A DNA stretch of 34,991 bases from a virus, in IMG/VR virus record IMGVR_UViG_3300029953_000099, positions 1 through 34,991 of that record. One strand, given 5' to 3'. This document shows, in pieces, positions 1 to 34,274 of this stretch. Each line of letters opens with the position of its first letter. The stretch's first letter is position 1. The notes below the pieces were generated by a model that saw only the letters and a program-made list of their open reading frames with translations, made no database searches and was not told where the DNA came from. The position numbers and the translations under genes are program-made.

Positions 1-1545
1 TTTTCTACCTATAACAGCAATTGATTCTTGCATTTGTGCTTCGGGAGGAACCATTGGACCAAAAGTTTTAAGATCTTCTTGGATTTCCATCATCATTTCT
101 TCTATTTTTTCATCGGTCATTTGCCATACATTTCTAAACACAAAACGTCTACTAATAAATTGATCAATAAATGGAACTAATTGTGTGGTTGTTGCTGCTC
201 TATCTCTAAGAATTTCAGAATTTTTAAGTTCTTCAAAATAATTATCATCAGTAAAAATAAATTTTATATCTTGTTTAATTTCGTCCCATTCTTCAGGAGC
301 AATAACTTGACGAAGAACTAATTGCTTTTCTAATGCCGCGTAAAATAAATGACTAAATTGATGACGAAGTCTATGTACAAATTTGGTAAATTTTAATTCA
401 TCTCTTGTAATTTCCGTTGGACGTCCCATATTAAATGTTCCGCCTGGATCAGTTCTTGTAATTGGAACTTTAAGAGCTTTATACAATTTATTAAGAAAAT
501 ATGACATATGTTCAGTAAGTTCATTTAATTGAGTACCTTCAGGAAGTGTTTCAATTTTTGTTCCGGCCCCATCTCGTGTTGGAAGCCAATAATTTTCTTG
601 CATTGTCATAAATTTACGTTGATCGGAAAGAGTACCATCCGATTGATTATAATTTACTTTATTTTTATACATATTCATTTGATTAGCAACAAACTGTTGT
701 GCTTTACCTACAGGTAAACCACCTGTTTCAACATAAAATGCCAATCTAGAAGGTGCTCTTACGAGAGAATAAACAACACTAGAGTCTTCTAACATTCTTA
801 ATTGATTAAGGGGCCGAATTGCGGGATGAAGAAAACTTAGTACCATTGTACTATTTTCATTCATTAAACCAGAAGTAACACCAAGAATTGCATCGGGGGA
901 AATTCTCGTTGCATTCATCCCGGCTGTTGTGTTAAAAAACGAAGTTGTAGCAACATTTGTAAATGAATTTGAATTATATAGATAATATTCATTTACAACA
1001 TTTTGTAGAGTCCCACCTTCAGGTGATGGAACTTGACTTATTTCTCTAATTTTTCTAAGTTTTAAAGCATCAATTTCAATAAGTTTTTGTATACCATTTT
1101 GTGGATTTGCATCATCAATAATTACATGATAATATTTTCTACCATCAATATACCAACCTCTGAAAATTTCATAAGCAACATTGTTAAAATCGAATAATTT
1201 GAGAATATGTTGGAATTCTTCTTCAATAACAGCTTTGATATTATCAGGAAGAGGAAGATTGGAAACATCAATTTGAACAGGATCATTATCTGGATCATCG
1301 ACAATAATTGCATCATTAACAATGTCATCTATTGCGGAATCAACTTCAGGATGAAAAGCTAAATCTCTATAACGAGCAATTAATTCGGCTTCGGTTTTTA
1401 TAGTTCCATCTAAATCAAGAGTAAACCCAAGTGTTCCTCCATTAGCTGGAACATTAGTTGTGGTTTCTCTATCAGTAGGAACGACGAAAGAATTCCCATA
1501 ATTGGGTTTATTTCTTTCGATATTAAATCCGAATAAATTAACTAT
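1..1545 (-). CDS. 20: Portal vertex protein gp20 (3' end outside window)
   Basis: Portal protein of a T4-type head: a dodecamer at one capsid vertex through which DNA is packaged and to which the neck attaches. The reading frame is open from about 1557 to the left edge, giving about 515 residues of a roughly 520-570 residue family. It has T4 gp20-type blocks: RAPSRLAFYVETGGLP near residue 265, NYWLPTRDGAG, and PITRTDPGGTFNMGR near residue 365. The C-terminus is cut off by the window. The start is unusual. The frame is closed by TAA at 1558-1560, and no ATG, GTG or TTG occurs before the conserved N-terminus. A GGAG at 1553-1556 lies 7 nt before ATA at 1545, which would give (M)VNLFGFNIERNKPNYG. 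ATT at 1548 or 1551 are alternatives. Identity is very secure; the start codon is inferred. Confidence 0.93.
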   Translation of the reverse strand, partial: MVNLFGFNIERNKPNYGNSFVVPTDRETTTNVPANGGTLGFTLDLDGTIKTEAELIARYRDLAFHPEVDSAIDDIVNDAIIVDDPDNDPVQIDVSNLPLPDNIKAVIEEEFQHILKLFDFNNVAYEIFRGWYIDGRKYYHVIIDDANPQNGIQKLIEIDALKLRKIREISQVPSPEGGTLQNVVNEYYLYNSNSFTNVATTSFFNTTAGMNATRISPDAILGVTSGLMNENSTMVLSFLHPAIRPLNQLRMLEDSSVVYSLVRAPSRLAFYVETGGLPVGKAQQFVANQMNMYKNKVNYNQSDGTLSDQRKFMTMQENYWLPTRDGAGTKIETLPEGTQLNELTEHMSYFLNKLYKALKVPITRTDPGGTFNMGRPTEITRDELKFTKFVHRLRHQFSHLFYAALEKQLVLRQVIAPEEWDEIKQDIKFIFTDDNYFEELKNSEILRDRAATTTQLVPFIDQFISRRFVFRNVWQMTDEKIEEMMMEIQEDLKTFGPMVPPEAQMQESIAVIGRK

Positions 1546-1552
1546 AATAATT

Positions 1553-1556
1553 CTCC
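1553..1556 (-). promoter_or_regulatory. Shine-Dalgarno deciding the non-AUG start of gp20
   Basis: GGAG on the minus strand, 7 nt before ATA (1543-1545) and 4 nt before ATT (1546-1548). An out-of-frame ATG overlaps it (1556-1558). That ATG opens only a six-codon frame, has no Shine-Dalgarno of its own and stops inside the gp20 start region, so it is probably not the gp20 start. Confidence 0.6.
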
Positions 1557-1570
1557 ATTATATTGATAAT

Positions 1571-1588
1571 GGATCAAATAAGTGATCC
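1571..1588. other. Hairpin between gp19 and gp20
   Basis: Perfect 6-bp inverted repeat GGATCA / TGATCC with a 6-nt loop, in the short gp19-gp20 spacer. On the minus-strand transcript it lies about 15 nt upstream of the gp20 Shine-Dalgarno. No U-tract follows on that strand, so it looks more like an mRNA structure or processing site than a strong terminator. Confidence 0.4.
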
Positions 1589-1594
1589 TTCACA

Positions 1595-1601
1595 TATTTA
1601 G
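1595..1601 (-). promoter_or_regulatory. Possible late-promoter-like box (CTAAATA) before gp20
   Basis: Minus-strand CTAAATA, a one-base-shorter relative of the T4 late box TATAAATA, in the gp19-gp20 spacer about 50 nt before the gp20 start. The same heptamer precedes gp18 and the 1197-residue protein. It is a short AT-rich word, so support is weak. Confidence 0.3.
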
Positions 1602-1609
1602 GTTAAAAT

Positions 1610-2179
1610 TTAGCTTGCGTTTTGTCCGCTTACTGTTGGACCAACTGCATCCCACCAAGCATAACTAAATGCAACTTGATAAGTTTCGATTTGGTCGACA
1701 GATGCCCAATTTAAATCTATTTGAGAAATTTGACTTGGCCACATATAATTAAATTGATATTGTCTAATTGGATTGACTTGATCAGTTCTTCCATATTGAA
1801 ATACTTGAGCAGTAGCCATTACTAGATTTGGATCTGAAGAAGCTGCTTCTCTAATATTTCCTTCACGAGCATTAATAAGCGTATGCCAAGTTTCAAGAAC
1901 ATCTCTAACAAGAAAATCTTCATCGTTGATAATTGTAACTTGCCAAGGAGCAAATGGAGGTCTATCGCCAGGATATGGAATCATTCTACCAAAATAAGGA
2001 ACATTTATAGTTCCCACGGTTGATGGTGGAATTTCTGCGCCTTGACAAGTAAATGTCAATTTTTGTAGCGCGGCGTTATTTGTTATACCTGAAGGTAAAG
2101 ACATTTGTACATTAAATAGAGTAGGTCTTGCGCCCCCTCCAGTTAAAGCAGTTCTTAAACTTTGAACATCAAATCCCAT
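1610..2179 (-). CDS. 19: Tail tube protein gp19
   Basis: 189-residue tail tube subunit; stacked hexamers form the inner tube through which DNA leaves. The N-terminus MGFDVQSLRTALTGGGARPT and the segment CQGAEIPPSTVGTINVPYFG are characteristic of T4-type gp19. The length is close to the family norm (163 residues in T4, longer in marine relatives). ATG at 2179 follows AAGGATT with good spacing, and an exact T4 late box lies at 2202-2209. It is transcribed between sheath (gp18) and portal (gp20), the usual T4-like order. Confidence 0.95.
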   Translation of the reverse strand: MGFDVQSLRTALTGGGARPTLFNVQMSLPSGITNNAALQKLTFTCQGAEIPPSTVGTINVPYFGRMIPYPGDRPPFAPWQVTIINDEDFLVRDVLETWHTLINAREGNIREAASSDPNLVMATAQVFQYGRTDQVNPIRQYQFNYMWPSQISQIDLNWASVDQIETYQVAFSYAWWDAVGPTVSGQNAS

Positions 2180-2201
2180 ATATTTTAATCCTTTTTTCTT
2201 T

Positions 2202-2209
2202 TATTTATA
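2202..2209 (-). promoter_or_regulatory. T4-type late promoter for gp19
   Basis: Exact TATAAATA on the minus strand, 22 nt upstream of the gp19 ATG, in the 37-nt gap after gp18. This matches the T4 late promoter consensus recognised by gp55-type sigma factors and lies in a non-coding gap. Confidence 0.65.
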
Positions 2210-2216
2210 CTAGAAA

Positions 2217-4301
2217 TTATATTTGACCTTCAACTTCTGCGAAAGTTACACCATTGTTTACAGCTTGGAAGTAAAGATTAATATATCTTATTGCTCTTGC
2301 TGGTATAACTTGAACAACACCAACAAAACCATCAGAATTAATAACATCGGGAGTGTTTACATCTGGTCCCGAATCAATATTATAAGCAGTAATACCACGT
2401 CCACCTTGAATATTTCTTAGAAATGGATCAACTACGTTTACAAATTGTGCTTGTGTAAATGCATCATTAAATTCAAACAAGAATGCTCTAGCAGCAATAG
2501 ATATTGATTTTCTTAATAGAATAAACAATCTACGAACGTTAATAGCATTAAATGCTGAAGTTGTACCAATAAGTGTTTTATCACCTAATAATACAGTTCC
2601 TACACCATTTTGTGTTACAACAGGATTAATATCATTATTGAATAATGTATCTCTGTCAGTAGCACTTGGGTTATAAGCAAGTTTTACAACGTTGTTTATA
2701 ATTCCTCTATTATAACCTGCTGGTGACCACCAAGAAGCATTTGTAAGATCGGTACGAGCAATAAGACCACCAATATCTCCATTTAAAGGAATCCAACGAT
2801 AAACATTGTTATATTGGTCATATTGATATTTGTAACCTGAATCTAGAATACCATAAGATGAAGATGTCATAGCATTTCTGAAATTAATTATATTTTGTGC
2901 TTGTTGACCACTTGCATTAACAACCGCCGCCTGTGAAGGTGAAGCTACCATTACACAATCTTGTCTTGCTAATACTATATTACCTATAACATAATTATAT
3001 AAACCTTCGCCATATGTACCACCAAGAGCATGTCCTTGAAGTATAATAGAAACATCAACTACAGTTGGATCAGCAAATAAGTTATATGCATTTGCAATTG
3101 TACCCAAATCTATTGTAGTTTCTGAATTACCATCTTGACCACCAATAAATGATGAAGTTAGTGGATCGGCATTTGTTGAACTTACAAGATTAACTGCAGT
3201 ATTTGATGCCGCACCACTTCTATCATTACCCCACCAAACATAATTTGATTGTTGATTTATAATATTTTCATAATAAGTTGTGGCACCAGTGCTATCAACT
3301 GCATCTGTTGCTCTTGACATTGCTGGGAATATTTCAAGAACATTACCAGGAACCCCAGTAAACAAACCATTTTTATCAAATACAACAACATGTAATTGAT
3401 CGATAACATTGTTATTTGCCCCAACTGTTTTTGCTTGATATGATGAAGTTGTTGGAGCTTTTGGAACCGAATTAATAAATTGCCAAGATCTAGTAATTGT
3501 ATTACTTGAAAAATTAGCTGCTAGATTAAATTTTGCTGATAAACCAATTGTAACAGAGGCGTTCGCCCCATTTTGTACAACAGGTCCAATACTTGTTGTT
3601 TTTAGAAGTTGTGTACCAACACTTGAATTACCTGCTGTTAGTAAATCTCCCGCAATAAGACCATTAACAACATTATTTGCTACTATTCCGGTATCTGTTC
3701 CTGTACCATTTGCACTTGGAAATACCGAAACTGTTGCTGTATTTGAACCAACAACAAATGATATTGCTGTAGAAACGGCATTAATATTACCATTTGCGAT
3801 TAAATTTATTGTACTTGAATATGCATTTGCTGAATCACAAATAGAAACGGCTAATGAATTACCAAGCGCTCCAGGGCAACGTGCAACATATAATACTGAT
3901 GGATCAAAATTAGTTCTATTAGTAGCATATGTATCACTATTTTCAACAATTGCACCAAGAAGTACTGTATTTGATACAGTATTTGAACCAGTTACTACTG
4001 CTGATAAGGTTGTATTTGCAATATTATTTGCTAAACCTGAAGTATTTGCTGCACGAACTACCCATAGACTTTGGCTGTAAGATAGAAAGTTAAAACCAGT
4101 AAAAAATGTTTCTGCGTTTAAATTTGTAGGTTGTCCAAAAATAGAAACCAATTGTTTTGATTGACTAACTTGAGTCAATTGTCCAACAGGTCCCCAAGTA
4201 AATATACCAGCAAGAGCACCATCTGATGTTGCTACTGATGGAACTATAGTTGTGCTATCTATTTCGAAACTTTGGATTTTTGGTGCGCCACTAAAAGCCA
4301 T
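2217..4301 (-). CDS. 18: Contractile tail sheath protein gp18
   Basis: 694-residue sheath subunit that polymerises around the tail tube and contracts on infection. The N-terminal block MAFSGAPKIQSFEIDSTTIV plus GIFTWGPVGQ, and the C-terminal domain with FVNVVDPFLRNIQGGRGI and VIPARAIRYINLYFQ, are typical of T4-like sheaths. The length matches (659 in T4). The middle third is rich in Asn, Thr and Ser and is probably the variable surface domain. ATG at 4301 follows AAGGAG. The neighbours are terminase upstream and tail tube downstream, as expected. Confidence 0.96.
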   Translation of the reverse strand: MAFSGAPKIQSFEIDSTTIVPSVATSDGALAGIFTWGPVGQLTQVSQSKQLVSIFGQPTNLNAETFFTGFNFLSYSQSLWVVRAANTSGLANNIANTTLSAVVTGSNTVSNTVLLGAIVENSDTYATNRTNFDPSVLYVARCPGALGNSLAVSICDSANAYSSTINLIANGNINAVSTAISFVVGSNTATVSVFPSANGTGTDTGIVANNVVNGLIAGDLLTAGNSSVGTQLLKTTSIGPVVQNGANASVTIGLSAKFNLAANFSSNTITRSWQFINSVPKAPTTSSYQAKTVGANNNVIDQLHVVVFDKNGLFTGVPGNVLEIFPAMSRATDAVDSTGATTYYENIINQQSNYVWWGNDRSGAASNTAVNLVSSTNADPLTSSFIGGQDGNSETTIDLGTIANAYNLFADPTVVDVSIILQGHALGGTYGEGLYNYVIGNIVLARQDCVMVASPSQAAVVNASGQQAQNIINFRNAMTSSSYGILDSGYKYQYDQYNNVYRWIPLNGDIGGLIARTDLTNASWWSPAGYNRGIINNVVKLAYNPSATDRDTLFNNDINPVVTQNGVGTVLLGDKTLIGTTSAFNAINVRRLFILLRKSISIAARAFLFEFNDAFTQAQFVNVVDPFLRNIQGGRGITAYNIDSGPDVNTPDVINSDGFVGVVQVIPARAIRYINLYFQAVNNGVTFAEVEGQI

Positions 4302-4373: not shown

Positions 4374-6107
4374 TTACTCAAGAAACCATCGATCAAAATC
4401 ACTTATATTATTCATATCTAATAATAAAGAAATATCGGCACCACTATCTCTCATTATTCCCATAGGAAGACTTTCTTGTTGATTAATAAATCTTTGATTT
4501 ATATTATGATTTATATCAGTATTTGTGATTTGTTTGAATGAATCTTGTGTTGTAAGCCAAGCAAATGTAATAAGACCCATAACTAAATCATCATGTTCTC
4601 CTTGTTCTGCTTGCCAAGATGAACCTTTTCTAATAAATCTAGTTAATTCATAGAAAATACGATAATCAGTAACAAGAAGTTGTTCATTCTCAACTAACAT
4701 TTTTAAATTTGAACATCCAATATGTTTTGTTTTCTTGGTTTGTTTTACACCGAGATAACTTCTTGACATTGTTTCTGAGACTTCATCTTTTTTAGATTTT
4801 GGATTTGTTGATAAAATGTTTTCATATTCCAAATCATAATAAAGAATTTGTACAACTTGTGATCCCGCCGCATTTGTTTCAATAACAACAAATGCTTTAT
4901 TATAATAAGTTGCGGTATCATAAATTACATTTGGATAAAGAAGAGGAACTATATTATTACATGCATATGTACAAACTACTTTGTATGGTATTTGTGTCAC
5001 ATCAATAACAGAAAAGGCTGATGAATCACCTTCCACTCCTTCAGAAACATCCGCAGATAGAACATATTGATGACCTAAAATAGGATGTTCAAATATTTGA
5101 TGTTGTCCCAAATCGTCTTGTATTAAGGATTTAGAAAATGCAATGGATTTTAATTTTTCTGGATCTATAAGAGTATTTGATGATCCAATAAAATCAGTAA
5201 CATATTCAGATCTAAATCTTGCTTCCCCAATTCTTGCGGTTTCTTTACGAGCCCATTCTTCATTTCTTCCAGGAACATCCCAATAATTAATTGTAAATCT
5301 TTTAAAGTCATTTAAACCTTGTTCAGACTCAGACCATAATTTATAAAAATATTTAAAACCTCTTGGTGTGGTTGTTATAATAAATTTAGTTGTTTGGCCC
5401 GATGAAATAGTTGGAAAAGAGGTTGTAAAAAATAATTCTTGAAGATTTGGTTCAATTAAGTCAAATTCATCCGAATATACAATGTTTACAGATTTACCAA
5501 CAATCGAACCACTCGAAGTGGCCGCCGCGAATATTTTCGAATGATTTTCTAATTCAATAGATTTTGTATTCCATGTATATAATCCTTGTTGTAACCAAGG
5601 CGGCATGTTACGAAAATATACTTTAATTCTTTCTAGAATATCAATAGATTGTTCCTGTTTGTGTGCTAATACTGCAATATTATAATCTGAATTAAATAAT
5701 GCATACCAAAGTAAAATGGCAGCAACTGTTGCAGTATTATGTGATAAAATATTATTAGTATAAAATCTATGATTTTCCGAATCTATAGTAATATCATACA
5801 TATTTTCATATATATCAGTAATCGTTAATTCTATTACTAATTCTAAACCATCTTTTGTTTGTATACTTGTTATATTAGGAATACAGTTTTTTACAAATAT
5901 TTCATTATAATTTTCGTCGAATATTATATGATTATCCGCACACTCTAATATTTTTCCTGTTTCTGTTTTTAATATATATTTTTGATATTCAATAGTTTTA
6001 TGAATTTGTGTAGCATCTACCCAACCGTCATCAGTTTCTATTTCCCAATCTGAAATATTAATTGAATTTATAAATTTACGATTTATATTGTCAGAAAGTT
6101 GATGCAT
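4374..6107 (-). CDS. 17: Terminase large subunit gp17, C-terminal piece, preceded by split-intein C-fragment
   Basis: 577 residues: an intein C-fragment (1-124) fused to most of the packaging motor. The intein part has block B (TGKILECADNHIIF, His60), block F (YDITIDSENHRFY) and the terminal LSHN, followed by Thr125 as first C-extein residue. The extein has Walker B IVYSDE (Asp213, Glu214), coupling motif ITTTPRG (244-250), and RNase-H-like nuclease acidic residues Asp353 (SADVSEG), Glu410 (VVIE) and Asp506/507 (GEHDDLVM). Splicing with the upstream N-piece would rebuild Walker A as SRQSGK-TAT and give a 539-residue TerL, normal for marine T4-like phages. ATG at 6107 overlaps the endonuclease stop by 25 nt in another frame, suggesting translational coupling. 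Splicing itself is inferred. Confidence 0.93.
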   Translation of the reverse strand: MHQLSDNINRKFINSINISDWEIETDDGWVDATQIHKTIEYQKYILKTETGKILECADNHIIFDENYNEIFVKNCIPNITSIQTKDGLELVIELTITDIYENMYDITIDSENHRFYTNNILSHNTATVAAILLWYALFNSDYNIAVLAHKQEQSIDILERIKVYFRNMPPWLQQGLYTWNTKSIELENHSKIFAAATSSGSIVGKSVNIVYSDEFDLIEPNLQELFFTTSFPTISSGQTTKFIITTTPRGFKYFYKLWSESEQGLNDFKRFTINYWDVPGRNEEWARKETARIGEARFRSEYVTDFIGSSNTLIDPEKLKSIAFSKSLIQDDLGQHQIFEHPILGHQYVLSADVSEGVEGDSSAFSVIDVTQIPYKVVCTYACNNIVPLLYPNVIYDTATYYNKAFVVIETNAAGSQVVQILYYDLEYENILSTNPKSKKDEVSETMSRSYLGVKQTKKTKHIGCSNLKMLVENEQLLVTDYRIFYELTRFIRKGSSWQAEQGEHDDLVMGLITFAWLTTQDSFKQITNTDINHNINQRFINQQESLPMGIMRDSGADISLLLDMNNISDFDRWFLE

Positions 6108-7111
6108 TTTTTTATTGTTTCTTCTTTATTCTTTTTATAATCATTTTCCCAAATCACTAACACCTCGTACCCTTGTGATTCAGCAAGTTCTATTTTCTTT
6201 TTATCTTTTTCCCATATTCTTTTGGCTTTAATTGATTTTCTGGGAAAATTTAATATATCATTTCTTTTATATTTTATTGGATTGGCGTGCCAATAATCTC
6301 CATTATATTCTATAATTTTATTATTAAATTTTAAATCATAAATAAAATATCTTTTATTTTCATAATATAAAGTAAATTGTTTTTCTATTTTTATTTTATT
6401 ATTTAAAATTTCAAATATTTCTTTTTCAGCTTTAGAAATACTAATTCCATTTGTAACTTTTAATCTATTTATTCTTGCCTTTTCTTCATCTGATTTGTTG
6501 TTTAGAGTTTCTTGCCATTTTATTTGCCTTTCATTCCAAATTTTTAAGCCTTTTTCAATTCCATGTTTTGTTATACAAATCTCTTTTGAAAATGTTTTTT
6601 GTCTTTCTGATTGTAATAACTTTGCTTCTTCTAATGAAAATCCTTTATTTAACCAATATTCTAAAGTAGTTGTTTGATTTTCTGGGTGATTTTTTACAGA
6701 TTGTTCTTTTTTTAGTTTAGCTTGTAATCTCTTTTCTTCATTATGATATAAAGATTTTTTAGAAAATGGGGATAAAGTACCACCATGTTGATAACCAGGA
6801 TTTTTTTCACCTTGCATACTTTTACTATATAAATTCAATGTATTATTTGATATATAATTACTATTTGGAAATTGATTTTTATATTCATTTAAAGTTATTT
6901 GATGTATATTAATTATATGTTTTCGTAAATTTTTGTTTTTATATTCACATAACTCACATTTTATTAAATCAATATTACTTTCATTTTGTTTAGTTTTATA
7001 TTCGATATAACATCTATAAGAACATTTATTATTCTTTTCACCCTTTGTTCCTGTTACATAAGCTTTAGAATAAGTATTATTACATATTTCACAAATTTTT
7101 GTTTTCTTCAT
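6083..7111 (-). CDS. Zinc-finger Vsr-like homing endonuclease between the split terminase halves
   Basis: 342-residue free-standing endonuclease. Two putative zinc-binding segments come first: Cys7/Cys10/Cys30/Cys34, then Cys52/Cys55/His65/His70. A Lys-rich linker follows, with WNERQIKWQ-type repeats. The C-terminal 120 residues look like the Vsr-like 'EDxHD' nuclease family: SKAEKEIFEIL (Glu229), FIYDLKF (Asp259), IIEYNGDYWHANP (Glu268, His275), IWEKDKKKIE (Asp303) and YEVLVIWENDY. It overlaps the N-terminal terminase piece by 23 nt and the C-terminal piece by 25 nt, in a different frame. This matches the 'fractured gene' arrangement known from phage metagenomes, where such enzymes spread split inteins. 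It probably cleaves intein-free terminase genes near Walker A. The cleavage target is inferred. Confidence 0.85.
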   Translation of the reverse strand: MKKTKICEICNNTYSKAYVTGTKGEKNNKCSYRCYIEYKTKQNESNIDLIKCELCEYKNKNLRKHIINIHQITLNEYKNQFPNSNYISNNTLNLYSKSMQGEKNPGYQHGGTLSPFSKKSLYHNEEKRLQAKLKKEQSVKNHPENQTTTLEYWLNKGFSLEEAKLLQSERQKTFSKEICITKHGIEKGLKIWNERQIKWQETLNNKSDEEKARINRLKVTNGISISKAEKEIFEILNNKIKIEKQFTLYYENKRYFIYDLKFNNKIIEYNGDYWHANPIKYKRNDILNFPRKSIKAKRIWEKDKKKIELAESQGYEVLVIWENDYKKNKEETIKKCINFLTI

Positions 7112-7508
7112 TTGGTTCTTTTTTATTCAACAACATATTTTCTTGTTTGCCTTGGTTATTTAGTGTTGAATAAAAATTTTCTATTGTCGTTTCTATAATT
7201 TCTCCTGTTTTTTTATTACGAATTTTAATAAGTGTTGTATTTTTAACACATTTTCCACTTTGGCGTGACATTTTGCATAATAAAAATCTTTCATCTCTAA
7301 TTAAATTGATAAAATTTTCTTGATATTCTCTTGGTTCAAATAATTGTAAACCATCATCAAGAGTTATAATTTGTAAATAATTTTTACAAAAATATATTGG
7401 ATCATTGCCACATTTTATCAATTCTGCTACTTGTTCAGCAGTATATTCAAATTTAATACCGGCGGGGCGTATTCCATTGACACCTCTATATGAATATTCA
7501 ATCATCAT
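7089..7508 (-). CDS. 17: Terminase large subunit gp17, N-terminal piece plus split-intein N-fragment
   Basis: 139 residues. Residues 1-86 are the TerL N-terminus, with a large-terminase adenine-binding region (LQLFEPREYQENF) and the first half of Walker A, SRQSGK. Residue 87 is the catalytic Cys of an intein (block A: CVKNTTLIKIRNKKTGEI, then TIENFYSTLN). The intein fragment is only 53 residues, of which about the first 31 look conserved. The reading frame ends at 7089 without an extein. The partner fragment begins about 1 kb downstream after an endonuclease gene. ATG at 7508 (or 7505) overlaps the gp16 stop by 11 nt. Trans-splicing would restore Walker A. Confidence 0.92.
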   Translation of the reverse strand: MMIEYSYRGVNGIRPAGIKFEYTAEQVAELIKCGNDPIYFCKNYLQIITLDDGLQLFEPREYQENFINLIRDERFLLCKMSRQSGKCVKNTTLIKIRNKKTGEIIETTIENFYSTLNNQGKQENMLLNKKEPNEENKNL

Positions 7509-7965
7509 TATTCAATTTCTTTGAACTTATTGCACCCATATCTTTTAATCTCCCAAATAATTCATCAGCGCTTCCTGTAAAAATTATGTTATTAATAGTA
7601 TCAGCTTGTTGTGTTTTTGGTTCTTCTATGATAGAAGGTTTTATACCAAACATATCTTTATGAATGCCAATTAATTCTTTATTAGCTTTAACCATTGAAT
7701 CCAACATTTTCGAAAAAGAATCAAATGCTTTATTGTCTTGAGTTACGATTGCCACATCTTTTACATTTTCAAAAACTTCTTGACTAACACTAATTAGATT
7801 TTTTAGATTTTCTCTAACTTGAATATAATCTTCATGTGCTTCTTCGGCAGCTTGATCCACAACTTCTTCATAATGAACTAATTCTGTATTACTAACTTCG
7901 ACCAATTCCGATTTAGTTTCATTTAAAGGAACCATATTAAGAGCATTTGCAATTTTATCTTCCAT
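7498..7965 (-). CDS. 16: Terminase small subunit gp16
   Basis: 155 residues, matching T4 gp16 (164 residues) in size and layout: an acidic N-terminus, a long central helical/coiled-coil region (VRENLKNLISVSQEVFEN, ANKELIGIHKDMFGIKP), and a C-terminal segment with NIIFTGSADELFGRLKDMG. That last segment corresponds to the conserved 'FxGSxxEL' end of T4-like small terminases. It recognises phage DNA and stimulates the gp17 motor. ATG at 7965 overlaps the gp15 stop (TAATG) behind an AGGAAAT Shine-Dalgarno, so translation is probably coupled to gp15 and then to gp17. Confidence 0.92.
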   Translation of the reverse strand: MEDKIANALNMVPLNETKSELVEVSNTELVHYEEVVDQAAEEAHEDYIQVRENLKNLISVSQEVFENVKDVAIVTQDNKAFDSFSKMLDSMVKANKELIGIHKDMFGIKPSIIEEPKTQQADTINNIIFTGSADELFGRLKDMGAISSKKLNNDD

Positions 7966-8741
7966 TAATCTATTTCCTGTATAACATCGGTTATTATTGT
8001 ATATGGATCAGTTGGTTGAATATCATAAAAATTAACATTTGCTTCATGAATAAAGGTATTTGTTTCATTAACAATATCGGCATTGGCTAATGGATTTTGA
8101 TCAGGAACAGTAAGAGTTGTATTGACCCATCTGATAACAGGTAAATTATTAGCCGCGCCAAGATTAGGTCCAAAAAACCAACCATTAACAGTAAAAGATA
8201 CAACATATTGAAGATCTCTTTTATCTGCTATATGACCTTCAAATCTATCAGATTTTACTACCGAATTTAAAGTTATTATAATGTTAAAAGGATCAAAACC
8301 ATCCAAAATTGCAGCATTAATACAAAGATAAGGCTGAAAATATGGAATAATTTGCTCAATAACCTTAAATGCATCTTCAGTGTTACGAGCTTTTAAATAA
8401 AGTTCAAAATATATGTCATAAGCTGTTGGAACAAATCTTACATTTTGATTATTTTGTCTTATTTTATTGAGAGGATTGACTTGTCTATTTGAATCACGTT
8501 GTACATTGATTAAATCAAATCCCATTCTTGGAAGATTTATAGCAACAGTTTTAGTAAGCTGTGGATCAGATTCGGTTTGATCAATATAGTGTTCTCCTGC
8601 TGAAAATAATATAGGCACAGTTTGGGTTTGTGTTATTGAACCATTCGCATTTGATCTTTCAATCGTAATATCTCGAAATACGAATTCAAACAATTCTATA
8701 TATCTTTTTAAGGTCTGATTATAATAGTAATTTTCAAAAAT
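7965..8741 (-). CDS. 15: Tail terminator/neck protein gp15, probably initiated at ATT
   Basis: 258 residues from the proposed start. gp15 caps the tail and joins it to the neck. The conserved N-terminus FENYYYNQTLKRYIELFE continues without a break into FVFRDITIER; later blocks are EQIIPYFQPYL and VNGWFFGP. The first in-frame TTG (8693) would delete 16 conserved residues. Upstream, the frame is open to a TGA at 8799-8801 and holds no ATG, GTG or TTG. An AGGAG at 8750-8754 sits 8 nt before ATT at 8741. An adjacent dead copy of the gene start has ATG at exactly the corresponding codon (8846), so ATT occupies the ancestral start position. ATT at 8747 is a less well spaced alternative. Confidence 0.88.
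   Translation of the reverse strand: MFENYYYNQTLKRYIELFEFVFRDITIERSNANGSITQTQTVPILFSAGEHYIDQTESDPQLTKTVAINLPRMGFDLINVQRDSNRQVNPLNKIRQNNQNVRFVPTAYDIYFELYLKARNTEDAFKVIEQIIPYFQPYLCINAAILDGFDPFNIIITLNSVVKSDRFEGHIADKRDLQYVVSFTVNGWFFGPNLGAANNLPVIRWVNTTLTVPDQNPLANADIVNETNTFIHEANVNFYDIQPTDPYTIITDVIQEID
8704..8738. repeat. 35-bp direct repeat, copy 1 (inside gp15 5' end)
   Basis: Perfect 35-bp direct repeat of 8809-8843, offset by exactly 105 bp. On the minus strand this copy encodes gp15 residues FENYYYNQTLK and is part of the live gene. Confidence 0.97.
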
Positions 8742-8846: not shown

Positions 8847-8858
8847 ATTATTGCTTTC

Positions 8859-8866
8859 TATAAATA
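8859..8866 (+). promoter_or_regulatory. T4-type late promoter for gp14
   Basis: Exact TATAAATA on the plus strand, 23 nt before the proposed gp14 start at 8890 and just upstream of its AGGAG. It gives the inverted gp14-endonuclease unit its own late promoter, which it would need because the surrounding transcription runs the other way. Confidence 0.65.
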
Positions 8867-8876
8867 TTATATATTT

Positions 8877-8881
8877 AGGAG
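8877..8881 (+). promoter_or_regulatory. Shine-Dalgarno deciding the ATT start of gp14
   Basis: AGGAG followed after 8 nt by ATT at 8890-8892 and after 2 nt by ATT at 8884-8886. The only conventional in-frame start upstream (TTG 8851) lies upstream of both this site and the promoter box, so it would not be on a transcript made from that box. Confidence 0.6.
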
Positions 8882-8889
8882 AGATTAAA

Positions 8890-9615
8890 ATTCCAACAAA
8901 CCCATACATAGATAATTTTACATTTTCGACCGAACAAGAATTACTTTCCAATTTAATTGTAGAGAGTATTCAAATAAAAGGTTATAATTTTTATTATCTA
9001 CCACGTAGACATGGAAATTTAAACGAACTTCTTTCACAAGATGATCTTTCATATTTCGATACAGCATATATTGTTGAAATGTATATTAAATCTGTTGAAG
9101 GATTTGCTGGTGAAGGTCAATATTTGTCTAAATTTGGTCTTGATATTAGAGATCGAATGACATTTACTGTTGCTAGAGCAACTTTTAATACAATTGTTGG
9201 AGCATATGAAGGAACTTTAAGACCATATGAAGGTGATCTTATATTCTTTCCAATGACAAATAAAATTTGGGAAGTTAAACAAGCAGATCCATGGGCAGAT
9301 TTTTATCCAATGGGTTCTCTACCAATGTTTGATCTTATATGTGATGTATTTGAATATGATAATGAACATTTTGATACAGGAATTCCAGCTATTGATAATA
9401 TTGAACAACAATATTCGACAAATGTTGAAGAGTTCTATGAAAAATACTCAAATGGTGTTATAATAGTAGATGGTAATAACAATCCAATTATAGAACCGGG
9501 CTGGAGTCCAGCAAATCAAGATCCCGAATTTGATAATTACGATGCTAATACTACAGTGACACCAATGATTAATTACACAATTAAAAATCCATTTAGTCCA
9601 ACAGGAAATGTTTAA
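8890..9615 (+). CDS. 14: Neck protein gp14, inverted, probably initiated at ATT
   Basis: 241 residues; T4 gp14 has 256. gp14 and gp13 form the neck that closes the filled head. Conserved blocks follow the T4 order: NLIVESIQIKGYNFYYLPR, KSVEGFAGEGQYLSKFGLDI, PYEGDLIFFPM and ADPWADFYPMGS. The gene lies on the plus strand, opposite to gp13 and gp15 on either side, although T4-like phages normally keep 13-14-15 collinear. Initiation at ATT 8890, 8 nt after AGGAG, would give (M)PTNPYIDNFTFSTEQ, a natural-looking gp14 N-terminus. No ATG is available in frame there. The stop overlaps the next gene's ATG (TAATG). Confidence 0.9.
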   Translation: MPTNPYIDNFTFSTEQELLSNLIVESIQIKGYNFYYLPRRHGNLNELLSQDDLSYFDTAYIVEMYIKSVEGFAGEGQYLSKFGLDIRDRMTFTVARATFNTIVGAYEGTLRPYEGDLIFFPMTNKIWEVKQADPWADFYPMGSLPMFDLICDVFEYDNEHFDTGIPAIDNIEQQYSTNVEEFYEKYSNGVIIVDGNNNPIIEPGWSPANQDPEFDNYDANTTVTPMINYTIKNPFSPTGNV

Positions 9616-11159
9616 TGAGACTCAATCTCACTGAAGAAAACAAAGAAGATATTATTTTATTATATTTAATGAACAATAGCATGGAAAATATATCAAATAT
9701 TTACAATTGTTCATCATGGACTATAAAAAATATATTAAATAAGAATAAAGTAAATATTAAACGCCCAGGATTTTTTGGCCATACATTTAAAATTGATGAA
9801 AATATAAGAAATGAAATTGTTTTTCAATATAAAAATGGTATGTGTATAAAAGATCTTGAAAAAAAATATAATTTAACACATGAATATATTTGGAGACTGT
9901 TAAAAAACAATTCCATTATTTTTGAAACAAAAACAAAAAAAGGTGAAAATAATTATAATAAAATTATTAATGATTTGGTTAATTTATATATTAATGAAAC
10001 AAAATCTATAGTAGATCTTTCTAAAATCTTTAATGTATCGGTAGGAACTATTCATCGTTATCTTAAAAAGGCTAATATTGAATTGCGTTCTATTGGTTAT
10101 TCTAAAACACCACATAATAAAATAAGCTTAAAAAATCTTTTAGATTATGATTGGATGTATAATAAAATAATAATTGAAAAATTGACATGTAATGAAATTG
10201 CTTCATTATTTAATGTGGCTGATTCTATGATATCAAAATACGCGAAATTATTAAAAATTAATATACCTCACAAATGGCAATCTAAAACTGAAAGAAAAAT
10301 TATTGATTGGATAAAAACAATTTATGATGGTGAGATTATATCTAGTTATCGTAAATTAAAAAATAAAGAGTTGGATGTTTATATTCCAGAATTTAAATTA
10401 GCAATTGAATATAATGGAATTTATTGGCATTCGGAAAAATATTTAGGTAATAAAAAAGCCAAATATCGTCACATAAACAAAACAGAATTATGTGATAAAA
10501 ATGATGTTTTATTGTTACAAATAAATTCTAATGAATGGGAAAATGAAATTAAACGAAATATTTGGAAATCTATAATAAAAAATAAAATAGGATTTACAAA
10601 AAATAAATATTATGCCCGCAAATTAATCATAAAAGAAGTATTATCTATTGAATCGAAAGAATTTTTAGAACATAATCATCTTCAAGGTAATGTGCCAGCA
10701 TCTATTCGTTATGGTTTATATAACAATAATGAATTAATTATGTTAGCTACTTTTGGTAAAAGTAGATTTATTAAAGGAAAATATGAATTATATAGATTGA
10801 GTACTAAACTTGAAACACAAGTTTGTGGTGGGGCGAGTAAATTGATTAAACATTTTTTAAAAAATTATAATGATAAACCATTAATTAGTTATTGTGATCG
10901 TAGATATAGTAATGGTAAAATTTATGAAACATTAAATTTTAAAAAATTACGTGAAACAACACCAAATTACAAGTATGTTAAAAAAAATAAATTATATTCA
11001 AGAAATCAATTTCAAAAACATCTGCTCAAAGATAAATTAGAAATATTTAATGAAACCTTAAGTGAATCACAAAATATGATTAATAATGGTTATTATCGAA
11101 TTTGGGATTCGGGTAATTTTGTATATGAATTATCCGATTTGCATTCCAAGAGGTTCTGA
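9615..11159 (+). CDS. Vsr-like (EDxHD-type) homing endonuclease with four HTH segments
   Basis: 514 residues. Four helix-turn-helix-like segments come first (about 22-45, 76-99, 131-155, 189-213), for example FNVSVGTIHRYLKKANI and FNVADSMISKYAKLLKI. Next is a Vsr-like nuclease core: SKTERKII (Glu226), ELDVYIP (Asp254), IEYNGIYWHSE (Glu265, His272). The C-terminal domain (330-505) is common in phage mobile endonucleases: ARKLIIKEV, HNHLQGNVPASI, GGASKLIKHFL, YCDRRYSNGKIYETL, YYRIWDSG. Its ATG overlaps the gp14 stop. The last nine codons and the stop are read from the antisense strand of the gp13 3' end. It is very Lys/Asn-rich compared with the structural genes. The host-gene target is not known; gp14 or its neighbourhood is the obvious guess. 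Confidence 0.87.
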   Translation: MRLNLTEENKEDIILLYLMNNSMENISNIYNCSSWTIKNILNKNKVNIKRPGFFGHTFKIDENIRNEIVFQYKNGMCIKDLEKKYNLTHEYIWRLLKNNSIIFETKTKKGENNYNKIINDLVNLYINETKSIVDLSKIFNVSVGTIHRYLKKANIELRSIGYSKTPHNKISLKNLLDYDWMYNKIIIEKLTCNEIASLFNVADSMISKYAKLLKINIPHKWQSKTERKIIDWIKTIYDGEIISSYRKLKNKELDVYIPEFKLAIEYNGIYWHSEKYLGNKKAKYRHINKTELCDKNDVLLLQINSNEWENEIKRNIWKSIIKNKIGFTKNKYYARKLIIKEVLSIESKEFLEHNHLQGNVPASIRYGLYNNNELIMLATFGKSRFIKGKYELYRLSTKLETQVCGGASKLIKHFLKNYNDKPLISYCDRRYSNGKIYETLNFKKLRETTPNYKYVKKNKLYSRNQFQKHLLKDKLEIFNETLSESQNMINNGYYRIWDSGNFVYELSDLHSKRF

Positions 11160-31418: not shown

Positions 31419-32162
31419 TTAAATATTGTTTGCATTTACATCACCATCGACATTAACGTCTCCAACAACATTGATATCATTATTAATAGTCATTGTTCCA
31501 TCACAAGTAACATTTACATCATCCGCAAAGTGAACTGTAGTTGTTCCAGCAATAGTTAAAATAGAATCTGAACCATTTATAGAATAGTTTTTACCAGCAA
31601 CTTTTGTAATAAGATCACCGTCGGGACCAATATTTACATACGTTCCCGATTTATGAAATACTTCAATGAATTCATGACCGGGAGTGTCATTCACTTGTAT
31701 TGCATGGCCCGAAGATGTTGTTAATACTTTATTATTTGGATATGTTACTGAATAATTATCTGCAGGTTCTTGAGCGCCTCCTCCTTTTTTGAGTATTTGT
31801 GTTCCGATAGCAAGAGGAGAAATATCAGATTTACCATTTGGAGTTCCAGGAAACGATGATAATATTTTTGGTTGTTGATAGTGATTTCCATCGAGAAAAA
31901 ACCCAAAACATAAAGCTCCATTAGAAATTCCCGTTGGACTTTGACCAATTCCATTTGTTGAACTGTTTGATGGATCTTGACCAACCGAAGCCCATGGAAG
32001 TGTACTTGGAGGAACTTGTGAATGATCCTGTGAATGAATATTAAAAATTCTTACTTGAACACGTCCAAGTTGAAGAGGATCACCTAAATTATTTTCGACA
32101 AGCCCGCACCACCATACAAAATTACCATCCGCCCCAAATTGATCGTGTATTTCTGACTTCAT
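31419..32162 (-). CDS. 5: Baseplate hub/spike protein gp5-like, without lysozyme domain
   Basis: 247 residues from ATG at 32162. The N-terminal OB-fold (about 12-110) matches T4 gp5: NFVWWCGLVENNLGDPLQLG, RVQVRIFNIHSQDHSQVP, LPWASVGQDP, GALCFGFFLDGN. The lysozyme domain of T4 gp5 is absent. The C-terminus goes straight into short repeated strands ending VVGDVNVDGDVNANN, a minimal trimeric beta-helix needle. An in-frame TTG 15 nt upstream (32177) would start inside the endonuclease gene; the ATG overlapping its stop (TAATG) is preferred. It works with the adjacent gp27-like hub. Confidence 0.88.
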   Translation of the reverse strand: MKSEIHDQFGADGNFVWWCGLVENNLGDPLQLGRVQVRIFNIHSQDHSQVPPSTLPWASVGQDPSNSSTNGIGQSPTGISNGALCFGFFLDGNHYQQPKILSSFPGTPNGKSDISPLAIGTQILKKGGGAQEPADNYSVTYPNNKVLTTSSGHAIQVNDTPGHEFIEVFHKSGTYVNIGPDGDLITKVAGKNYSINGSDSILTIAGTTTVHFADDVNVTCDGTMTINNDINVVGDVNVDGDVNANNI

Positions 32163-32173
32163 TATATAACTTT
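32162..32173. repeat. 12-bp direct repeat at left edge of the GIY-YIG gene
   Basis: TTATATAACTTT (minus strand AAAGTTATATAA), identical to 33018-33029. On the minus strand it encodes the final KVI-stop of the endonuclease and supplies the first base of the gp5 ATG. Confidence 0.85.
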
Positions 32174-33016
32174 CCAACCACGATGATTATTTTGTTTTTG
32201 TTGTATAACATATAATAAAGCATCAGTTCTTAAATTTTGATTTTTGTATTTTTGACATAATTCATATCTAGTACAAGTTTCTTCATCAAAATTGTTATGA
32301 AAAAATTTATGTACTATTTTATTGTGATTATTTTTAAATGTTTTAGGTCTTTTATATATTATATCTTTAGACCAACCTTTATGTGAACCTTCATTTTTTT
32401 TAATTATATCACATAATCTAGATAATGATAATTTTTTATTTGAATATATTTCTATTAATTCTTTCGCGTTACAAAATATACTACCATGTTTATTATGTAT
32501 CCAATTAATTTTTTTATAATAATTATTATAATCACGTTTTGTATATTTTTTATTTTTATTTGAATATAGTACCCAACCTTTATGATTAGATATAAAACCA
32601 TTTATAACTTTTAATAGTTGTTTTATATCTAATTTTTGTTCTTTATACTTTTTTCTTAATTCAAATCTTTTACATTCTTCTATACCATAAATTTCATGCC
32701 AAAATTTATGTATTTTATCTTCTTTTAAAATATTTTTTGGTGGAAAATTACCTCCTATTTGAATGTTATAAGTATCTTCTCTTATAATAAATTCTTTATT
32801 AACAATTATAGATTCAACACAATATGCGTCTTCTTCATTAAATCCATAAAATAAAATTTCTTTCTTAAAATTTTCTTTGCCATATATTTTAATATCATTT
32901 AACAAATAATTACTAGAACCAAAATACTTATCCATTGGATCTTTAGTTGTATGAACTCCAACATATATTTTATTATTGATTAAATTTGTGGTTTGATATA
33001 CAGTATTATAAATCAT
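32162..33016 (-). CDS. GIY-YIG homing endonuclease
   Basis: 284 residues from ATG at 33016. The N-terminal GIY-YIG nuclease (1-90) has NTVYQTTNLINNKIYVGVHT, KYFGSSNYLLNDIKIYGKEN, a catalytic-type Glu68 (YCVESIIV) and DTYNIQIGGN. The C-terminal 190 residues contain three similar DNA-binding-like repeats, each ending in HKGW or HRGW (145-148, 212-215, 278-281) and with KFWHEIYGIEECKRFELRKK / KFFHNNFDEETCTRYELCQK pairs. It is inserted exactly between the gp27-like gene and gp5, flanked by a 12-bp repeat, so both reading frames remain intact. It is more Lys/Asn-rich than its neighbours. Mobility and target are inferred from the family. Confidence 0.9.
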   Translation of the reverse strand: MIYNTVYQTTNLINNKIYVGVHTTKDPMDKYFGSSNYLLNDIKIYGKENFKKEILFYGFNEEDAYCVESIIVNKEFIIREDTYNIQIGGNFPPKNILKEDKIHKFWHEIYGIEECKRFELRKKYKEQKLDIKQLLKVINGFISNHKGWVLYSNKNKKYTKRDYNNYYKKINWIHNKHGSIFCNAKELIEIYSNKKLSLSRLCDIIKKNEGSHKGWSKDIIYKRPKTFKNNHNKIVHKFFHNNFDEETCTRYELCQKYKNQNLRTDALLYVIQQKQNNHRGWKVI

Positions 33017-33017
33017 T

Positions 33018-33029
33018 TTATATAACTTT
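33018..33029. repeat. 12-bp direct repeat at right edge of the GIY-YIG gene
   Basis: Identical to 32162-32173. On the minus strand it encodes the final KVI-stop of the gp27-like hub gene. Confidence 0.85.
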
Positions 33030-34274
33030 TGTTGGAAAACCAAAACGAAATGCTTCTATGGTATTTATAGCTTGTCCTCCACTAATACCTAATCTAATAT
33101 TTCCTATAATATACAATCCCGTTGCTTGATTATCTACATTTGGACTATTGACACGAACAGGAAAAATAAAATTTATTATATCCCCTGCTTGTATTTGTGT
33201 ATCCCCCGGAGTGTTGAAACTAATTTTATTTTCGTTTAACATTGATGCATACAATTTATGTTGACCATATTGTTTAGGAAGAGCACTTGCATTACTGGTA
33301 TCTAAAGGTAACATATAAGTAATCGGAGGAACTGATCCGGTATTTGCAAATGCTGTACTATGTGATGGATTAAAACTAGAAGCAAATGGCTGTTTAATTA
33401 ACGTTGCAGCATCATTATAATTGGTATCTACATTACTAATACTTTTATTTAAAAAGTCAAATACAACAGTTCTTGAATTAATACCACCCGAATTTATAAG
33501 ATGGGTTGTACTAGCTTTTGAATCAATAGTTAGATTTGAAGCATTTCTAAGTTGACTTCCAAGAACTGTTACTGATCCACTATTATCACCTGCTTTTGGA
33601 AGATAGGAATCTGCAGTAAATATTAAGTTATTAGAATTAGCTTTTCTTTTATTTATTAGATATTCATAAGTAACAAAATGATAACCAGCCATATCTTCAA
33701 AGAATACATAAGGTGAATTATAAGTTGGACTCACTGCTCTTTTACGAAGAAGTTCTATTCCTTCCCAACAATTTAAAGAAGGTATTATTAAAGTTTCAAT
33801 ACCTTTTGACATTTCAACTTCAATAATTTGTTTAGTTTGTACTTTTGAAGTTAATATACCTTGGACAATGCTTGATATATTTTGATTAAAACCCTGAGCT
33901 ACTATTGTTGTAATTGCATTATATTGATCGGCTGAAGCAAAGTTTAATCTAAAATTAATATGAGAACCATTTTCATCATAATCTAAATTATCTATTCCAT
34001 ATACATAAAATGTTTTGGAAATTTTATTTCTATTGGGTGTTTGTACATCAATTGTTAAACTTTCTTCCCCCAGCATAGGAAGGTTTTGTAAAAGGCCGGA
34101 ACTATCAGAAATTGTTATACTTCCTAGCATAGTAGGAGCAAATAAAGTTTGATATATTTCTAATTGACCATAAATTCCTGTAATATCAATAGTTTTTTTA
34201 GAAACAAGACTGTTTAAACTGATAGTATTAATTTGTATGGCATTAACACCACCAAAAGCATTAGGACTGTCCAT
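33018..34274 (-). CDS. 27: Baseplate hub protein, gp27-like
   Basis: 418 residues (391 in T4). Order of features as in gp27: an N-terminal barrel (IDITGIYGQLEIYQTLFAPT, MLGSITISDSSGLLQNLPML, ESLTIDVQTPNRNKISKTFY), then a central region (LIIPSLNCWEGIELLRKRAV) followed by YVFFEDMAGYHFVTYEYLIN, which parallels the '[20 protein letters not shown]' segment of T4 gp27. The trimeric hub sits on gp5, encoded just beyond the inserted endonuclease. ATG at 34274 overlaps the gp53 3' end by 14 nt. Confidence 0.85.
   Translation of the reverse strand: MDSPNAFGGVNAIQINTISLNSLVSKKTIDITGIYGQLEIYQTLFAPTMLGSITISDSSGLLQNLPMLGEESLTIDVQTPNRNKISKTFYVYGIDNLDYDENGSHINFRLNFASADQYNAITTIVAQGFNQNISSIVQGILTSKVQTKQIIEVEMSKGIETLIIPSLNCWEGIELLRKRAVSPTYNSPYVFFEDMAGYHFVTYEYLINKRKANSNNLIFTADSYLPKAGDNSGSVTVLGSQLRNASNLTIDSKASTTHLINSGGINSRTVVFDFLNKSISNVDTNYNDAATLIKQPFASSFNPSHSTAFANTGSVPPITYMLPLDTSNASALPKQYGQHKLYASMLNENKISFNTPGDTQIQAGDIINFIFPVRVNSPNVDNQATGLYIIGNIRLGISGGQAINTIEAFRFGFPTKVI

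Follow-up and report, generated by a model that had tools for sequence, protein, structure and literature searches.

A probable mobile split intein in the P-loop of a T4-like terminase gene and its relatives with overprinted endonuclease genes

The interrupted terminase gene and its intein

The viral DNA analyzed here, positions 1 to 34,991 of IMG/VR record IMGVR_UViG_3300029953_000099 (34,991 nucleotides [nt]; this whole stretch is termed the window herein), carries on its minus strand a T4-like gp17 gene for the large terminase subunit (TerL), which is interrupted inside the Walker A motif; the locus comprises three open reading frames (ORFs). The first ORF encodes 86 TerL residues ending in SRQSGK, followed by 53 residues of which the first is Cys; the last encodes 124 residues ending in SHN, followed by 453 TerL residues starting with TATVAAILL; and an endonuclease gene lies between them. 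A first-pass annotation made from the sequence alone had described these three ORFs and both junctions, and an ORF check found them where it had placed them. The 53 residues that it counted on the N side are present, as is the tail of about 22 residues that it suspected after TIENFYSTLN, leaving an intein portion of only 31 residues; the length of this tail varies among relatives. The exteins add up to 86 + 453 = 539 residues, the size also given there for the predicted spliced TerL. The features of the locus are as follows (aa, amino acids; IntN and IntC, N- and C-terminal intein fragments).

7089-7508, minus strand: TerL-N/IntN ORF (ORF call)
7251-7508, minus strand: TerL (gp17) N-extein, 86 aa, last residues SRQSGK of Walker A (ORF, family match)
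7158-7250, minus strand: IntN with intein block A, 31 residues from Cys1 through FYSTLN (homology to the IntN part of contiguous inteins in Ackermannviridae and IMG/VR)
7089-7157, minus strand: tail of the N-ORF, 22 non-intein residues and stop, final 23 nt shared with the endonuclease start (ORFs, comparison with relatives)
6083-7111, minus strand: endonuclease gene, 342 aa, zinc-finger-like N part and Vsr/I-Bth0305I-like C-terminal nuclease (profile, fold)
4374-6107, minus strand: IntC/TerL-C ORF (ORF call)
5736-6107, minus strand: IntC, 124 residues with blocks B (ADNH), F (MYDITIDSENH), and G (ILSHN) (alignment, profile)
4374-5735, minus strand: TerL C-extein, 453 aa, begins T(+1)ATVAAILL, remaining ATPase and RNase H-like nuclease (ORF, family match)
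5736-7250, minus strand: full putative mobile cassette IntN-endonuclease-IntC (about 22% G+C, against 28 to 30% in the TerL exteins)
7498-7965, minus strand: terminase small subunit gp16 (TerS), neighbor (family match)
7965-8693, minus strand: gp15 (family match)
2217-4301, minus strand: tail sheath gene (family match)

Both TerL fragments match TerL families (N part, phrog_5989, 6e-25; C part, phrog_2, 3e-42). The ORFs overlap by 23 nt (N-ORF and endonuclease gene) and 25 nt (endonuclease gene and C-ORF), and the ATG that starts the IntC ORF precedes the endonuclease stop by 24 nt. Across the endonuclease region, the TerL frame contains 55 stops, compared to 58 expected from synonymous codon shuffling, so that the break cannot be put down to a simple frameshift in a contiguous gene, and no alternative contiguous frame is present.

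All residues of a class 1 intein are present in the window: Cys1, the block B ADNH motif (H60), D105, H123-N124, and Thr+1. In comparison to 19 relatives, IntC shows 32 to 62% identity with every catalytic position kept, and T38, A57, H60, M103, D105, and S122-H123-N124 are invariant across the 20 sequences; Ala57 replaces the usual block B Thr throughout the family. The motif alignment places the break between blocks A and B, with 31 residues in IntN and 124 in IntC, as is characteristic of atypically split inteins; the first-pass annotation had put the break and the C-side length correctly. Its assignment to the HINT family was borne out by a profile search of the protein structure database PDB, in which IntC matched best VidaL (9e-13), followed by gp41-1 (2e-12) and CatC, the C part of the Cat intein (3e-11). 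For a contiguous relative (L122; L numbers are our locus labels), the model gave a predicted local distance difference test score (pLDDT) of about 70 to 84 in the splicing parts and <50 in the inserted spacer; Foldseek with the model of this contiguous relative returned VidaL first and other inteins next.

The N part of the endonuclease resembles a Ros/MucR-like or C2H2-like zinc finger. The AlphaFold model of the endonuclease has a mean pLDDT of 83, with >92 in the nuclease, and Foldseek with this model found I-Bth0305I (3r3p) with a probability of 0.99 and Vsr (1cw0) with 0.97, in line with the Vsr-like enzyme proposed at first. A sequence search of the single protein against PDB gave no match, and the assignment came only from a 28-sequence profile and the fold search. 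D259, E268, G271, W274, H275, and E322 are invariant in the 28 endonuclease members.

In the mechanism that we infer, two TerL precursors would be translated from the overlapping ORFs, and IntN and IntC would associate and rebuild a single HINT fold. SRQSGK would then be joined to TATVAAILL by class 1 chemistry, using Cys1, the block B His, the block F Asp, the penultimate His, the terminal Asn, and Thr+1, to give the 539-residue TerL. The endonuclease of Vsr/I-Bth0305I type probably cuts intein-free TerL genes at the P-loop, and this cutting would drive homing of the entire cassette. The low G+C content of the cassette fits a mobile element.

The minus-strand order is gp15, TerS, TerL-N/IntN, endonuclease gene, IntC/TerL-C, and tail sheath gene. 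Two further endonuclease genes were seen in the window. One encodes a 514-aa homing endonuclease of HNH type (9615-11159, plus strand; phrog_3339, 6e-96) on the strand opposite to the operon and abuts a gp14-like gene (8851-9615). The other is a free-standing homing endonuclease gene (32162-33043, minus strand; phrog_314, 4e-31) that overlaps the ORF of a gp5-like baseplate hub/lysozyme (31419-32177).

Fractured and overprinted relatives

Relatives were gathered by scans of IMG/VR. For the window itself, a second contig (L008/L347) is 100% identical over 9 kb, which might be from the same sample and gives weak independent support; the only other relative of the TerL C-extein in IMG/VR had 30% identity. 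The arrangement as such is widespread: dozens of divergent contigs carry it, and the deduplicated fractured set comprises 55 loci, in which the two main host genes are TerL (29 loci; insertion between RQxGK and T or S) and a gp46/SbcC-like ATPase (26 loci; between NGxGK and S or T). The same break with an intervening endonuclease gene recurs in the 29 TerL loci, which, together with the 55 stops, shows that the arrangement did not arise by chance. In most of the 55 loci, TerL and gp46 alike, the IntC ORF runs for 24 nt before the endonuclease stop is reached, and in 48 the ATG of IntC occupies the first position. Both halves are in the same frame at 18 of the 29 TerL loci and 22 of the 26 gp46 loci; this excess is suggestive only, since related loci are compared and the overlaps at both ends fix the frames. 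Intein-free TerL genes with an intact P-loop are common (dozens) among related contigs.

Several further loci were noted during these scans. By eye, a related split intein with endonuclease lies in the P-loop of a clamp-loader-like ATPase (L351) and a related contiguous intein in that of a replicative-helicase-like protein (L352). TerL genes with at least two inteins, at Walker A, in the Walker B region, or at the CEFLG site, were seen in L011, L013, L014, L027, L033, L092, L102, L152, and L167; several of them are apparently split twice, and their TerL would assemble from three pieces. In contig 3300047547_000041 (L024/L154), which has the same fractured TerL arrangement, TAG seems to be read as a residue, and reading it as Q fits the conserved IntC alignment.

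A second state of the locus was found in 12 contigs of about six groups (L010, L116/L117, L122, L126, L128, L140, L135, L273/L275, and L306/L310). In L010 (IMGVR 3300003375_000180), an unbroken TerL-intein ORF of 996 codons contains a 296-codon endonuclease gene in another frame, and the TerL frame has no stop across that gene. Overprinted loci have 0 stops where 14 to 23 are expected from synonymous codon shuffling (z of −6 to −8), and the minimum in the shuffles was 5 to 13 (loci tested with 2000 shuffles each). The window, with its 55 stops in the connecting frame, is not overprinted, and the fractured loci show no stop depletion in that frame (mean z of −0.3), the trace that recent overprinted ancestry would have left, so that the sample contains no intermediates between the two states. 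Between divergent overprinted pairs, amino acid identity is 41 to 60% in the endonuclease frame and 22 to 33% when the same bases are translated in the TerL frame, indicating that the endonuclease is constrained as a protein and the spacer mainly by freedom from stops. An AGGAG-type ribosome site precedes the endonuclease start in five of the seven overprinted representatives. L121 (compared to L122/L126) and L307 (compared to L306) have near-identical inteins from which the endonuclease has been deleted in frame, with both spacer ends kept, and are mini-inteins derived from the overprinted form. Such in-frame deletions speak directly for translation of the long frame and for selection on it. 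Our search found no cultured phage with the overprinted state.

Other states occur at the same site. Split inteins with an endonuclease remnant were found in L097, L102, L104, L106, and L164, split inteins without endonuclease in L096, L145, and the cultured Delftia phage PhiW-14, and contiguous TerL mini-inteins in the Ackermannviridae Magnus, Kuja, and VAP7. In the cultured Vibrio phage vB_VmeM-32, TerL-N/IntN (79,947-80,624, minus strand) and IntC/TerL-C (1,102-3,216, plus strand) are ∼79 kb apart. In the cultured Campylobacter phage F379 (L362:732-4078), an endonuclease gene separates the TerL pieces in the fractured order; the nuclease is T5orf172-like (GIY-YIG type) and annotated in GenBank as "intron-associated," and the insertion lies three codons upstream of the window's site. 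Since vB_VmeM-32, F379, and PhiW-14 propagate, their TerL must be functional, and protein trans-splicing is the only evident way to achieve this with a split TerL.

Three side observations concern Vibrio phages. In vB_VmeM-32, whose TerL halves are at L004:4668-5345 and L360:1102-3216, the C half contains another intein, which is contiguous and lies close to the Walker B region, and a UvsX gene of this phage annotated with HintC (L361) adjoins a relative of the endonuclease. In Vibrio phage Va1 (L359:3281-5566), these parts are arranged in yet another way: at the CEFLG site, the endonuclease forms an in-frame fusion with IntC and TerL-C.

Homing, alternatives, and the direction of change

The endonuclease tree unites all gp46 enzymes in one clade (SH-like approximate likelihood ratio test, 99) apart from the TerL enzymes, with which the endonuclease of Caulobacter phage Cr30 groups. 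The intein tree mixes TerL and gp46 hosts, with six host switches, and places the window's intein closest to those of gp46, though with weak support. The endonuclease thus follows the target gene while the intein does not, as site-specific homing predicts.

We consider it highly probable that the window carries a mobile split intein in the P-loop of gp17, that TerL is rejoined as a protein, and that the endonuclease encoded by the middle gene mediates homing. That the P-loop intein is an active split intein is very likely, and the ∼79 kb between the TerL halves of vB_VmeM-32 make trans-splicing very likely for the family. Two observations weigh against this explanation. The fold matches of the endonuclease cover a small domain with modest E-values (0.05 to 0.2, at probabilities of 0.97 to 0.99), and in Cr30 (L001:4935-7653) a relative of the endonuclease stands alone, 46 nt upstream of an intact, intein-free TerL gene, showing that the endonuclease does not need an intein.

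Among the alternatives, the best is cis-splicing of a contiguous precursor, which the window would produce through two programmed frameshifts or through read-through. The N and C ORFs of the window do share a frame, close relatives have an unbroken one, and the window has a slippery heptamer (A AAA AAA), in phase, at −6 of its IntC ATG. However, in-phase heptamers near the endonuclease-IntC junction occur in just 12 of the 55 split loci, and frameshifting at this heptamer was rejected on that count; the first junction would need a +1 shift and has no recognized signal, read-through would have to cross dozens of stops, and cis-splicing is impossible in vB_VmeM-32 with its distant halves. We therefore regard a contiguous precursor as very improbable.

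Even less credit is due to three other explanations. Removal of the interruption as RNA, by a group I or group II intron carrying an endonuclease ORF, could be proposed because such ORFs are frequent in phage introns, and the GenBank annotation of F379 points that way. However, intact intein motifs flank both breaks and contiguous relatives translate straight through; an intron was rejected as Rfam gave no family match in the window, nor at E values up to 1 over 5700-7600, and it would be a considerable surprise. Equally implausible is that the unspliced halves work as a two-subunit TerL. A case cited in PMC10448857 is a phage nucleotide reductase that functions as two peptides, its gene being split by one for an endonuclease, but the TerL break falls between K and T of the P-loop, and full splicing chemistry is kept at both ends over wide divergence. 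An assembly artefact or a dead, decaying TerL gene might be suspected in a metagenomic contig of a single sequence type, yet exteins, intein, and the tail/packaging operon are intact and the same break occurs in dozens of divergent contigs and in isolates, which makes it hardly credible.

Beyond the probable trans-splicing intein of the window, the relatives suggest a wider scheme, to which we give somewhat better than even chances. The P-loop inteins of T4-like phages would include an overprinted state, in which an unbroken intein ORF encodes a cis-splicing precursor and the endonuclease is started separately. In the fractured state of the window, stops would have closed the frame of this same locus, making overprinting and the atypical split the two faces of a single evolutionary switch; where the endonuclease is lost, from either side, mini-inteins or permanently split inteins would result. 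By parsimony, changes between the overprinted and fractured states number three on the intein tree and two on the endonuclease tree, and a tree in which the overprinted endonucleases form one clade is not rejected (approximately unbiased test, P = 0.42); both trees are unrooted and do not distinguish gain from loss of overprinting. The direction from overprinted to fractured is favored on mechanistic grounds, since a single stop suffices to close an overprinted frame, whereas opening a fractured one would need tens of changes that bring no obvious benefit before the last of them. Counter to this direction, midpoint rooting nests the overprinted loci inside the fractured ones, and no intermediates were found.

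How atypically split inteins arise is an open question, and they have so far looked like isolated curiosities that serve as tools in protein engineering. At a single codon boundary, the family offers a graded series, from the empty site through the contiguous mini-intein and the contiguous intein whose endonuclease is overprinted to the fractured gene with endonuclease, then to split genes with a remnant of the endonuclease or with none, and finally to halves tens of kilobases apart. This series makes the origin of atypically split inteins, in both directions of change, testable. The overprinted members are natural cases of about 280 to 310 codons read in two frames, one of them kept merely stop-free, and may show how broken genes of this sort arise. 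For protein labeling, the family also provides numerous new cis/trans pairs in which IntN is very short. The overprinted sisters, the gp46 host, the mini-intein derivatives, and the free-standing copy of Cr30 had no place in the first-pass annotation, as relatives are needed to see them.

Comparison with known systems

The arrangement in the window is itself already known, the window being a new member. Fractured genes combining split inteins with Vsr-like homing endonucleases were reportedly described by Dassa et al. in 2009. These genes, and the fractured PolB of MIJ3 with its endonuclease ORF between the intein halves (PMC6892783), share with the window the position of the endonuclease ORF (here 6083-7111, as first annotated) and an I-Bth0305I/Vsr-like nuclease domain. 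The classic members generally break late, before block F; in contrast, the window has an early break, overlaps on both sides, and a conserved 24-nt geometry, and its family includes sister loci that are unbroken and overprinted.

The first-pass annotation compared the intein to AceL-TerL. The likeness holds in kind, as AceL-TerL, GOS-TerL, and Cat also have a TerL host, an atypical split between blocks A and B, and a short IntN (25 residues in AceL-TerL and 37 in GOS-TerL; PMC11766414). It does not extend to the allele or the insertion site, since the Cat/AceL type has CEFLG directly after SHN, with Cys+1, whereas the window's site lies in Walker A between GK and T, with Thr+1. The second intein of L102, at the SHN/CEFLG site, matches CatC with 2e-20, compared to only 3e-11 for the profile of the window's IntC, and L102, L152, and L167 carry both TerL alleles (Walker A and CEFLG). 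VidaL and gp41-1 are the closest solved structures by sequence and fold and belong to other host proteins or sites. The mini-inteins of Magnus, Kuja, and VAP7 share the P-loop site, with 38 to 44% IntC identity, but are contiguous and lack an endonuclease.

No intein that splices and has an overprinted homing endonuclease appears to have been described before; our literature search found none, but a 2025 preprint on non-canonical inteins of actinobacteriophages (10.1101/2025.01.02.630785), cited in PMC11855218, could be prior art. The nearest case, the ShiLan element, has an out-of-frame HNH endonuclease in an uninterrupted host ORF, and its insert is predicted to stay in the protein (PMC11855218). 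In contrast to ShiLan, which has no splicing domain and an unrelated nuclease and host gene, the overprinted relatives of the window's intein are true inteins.

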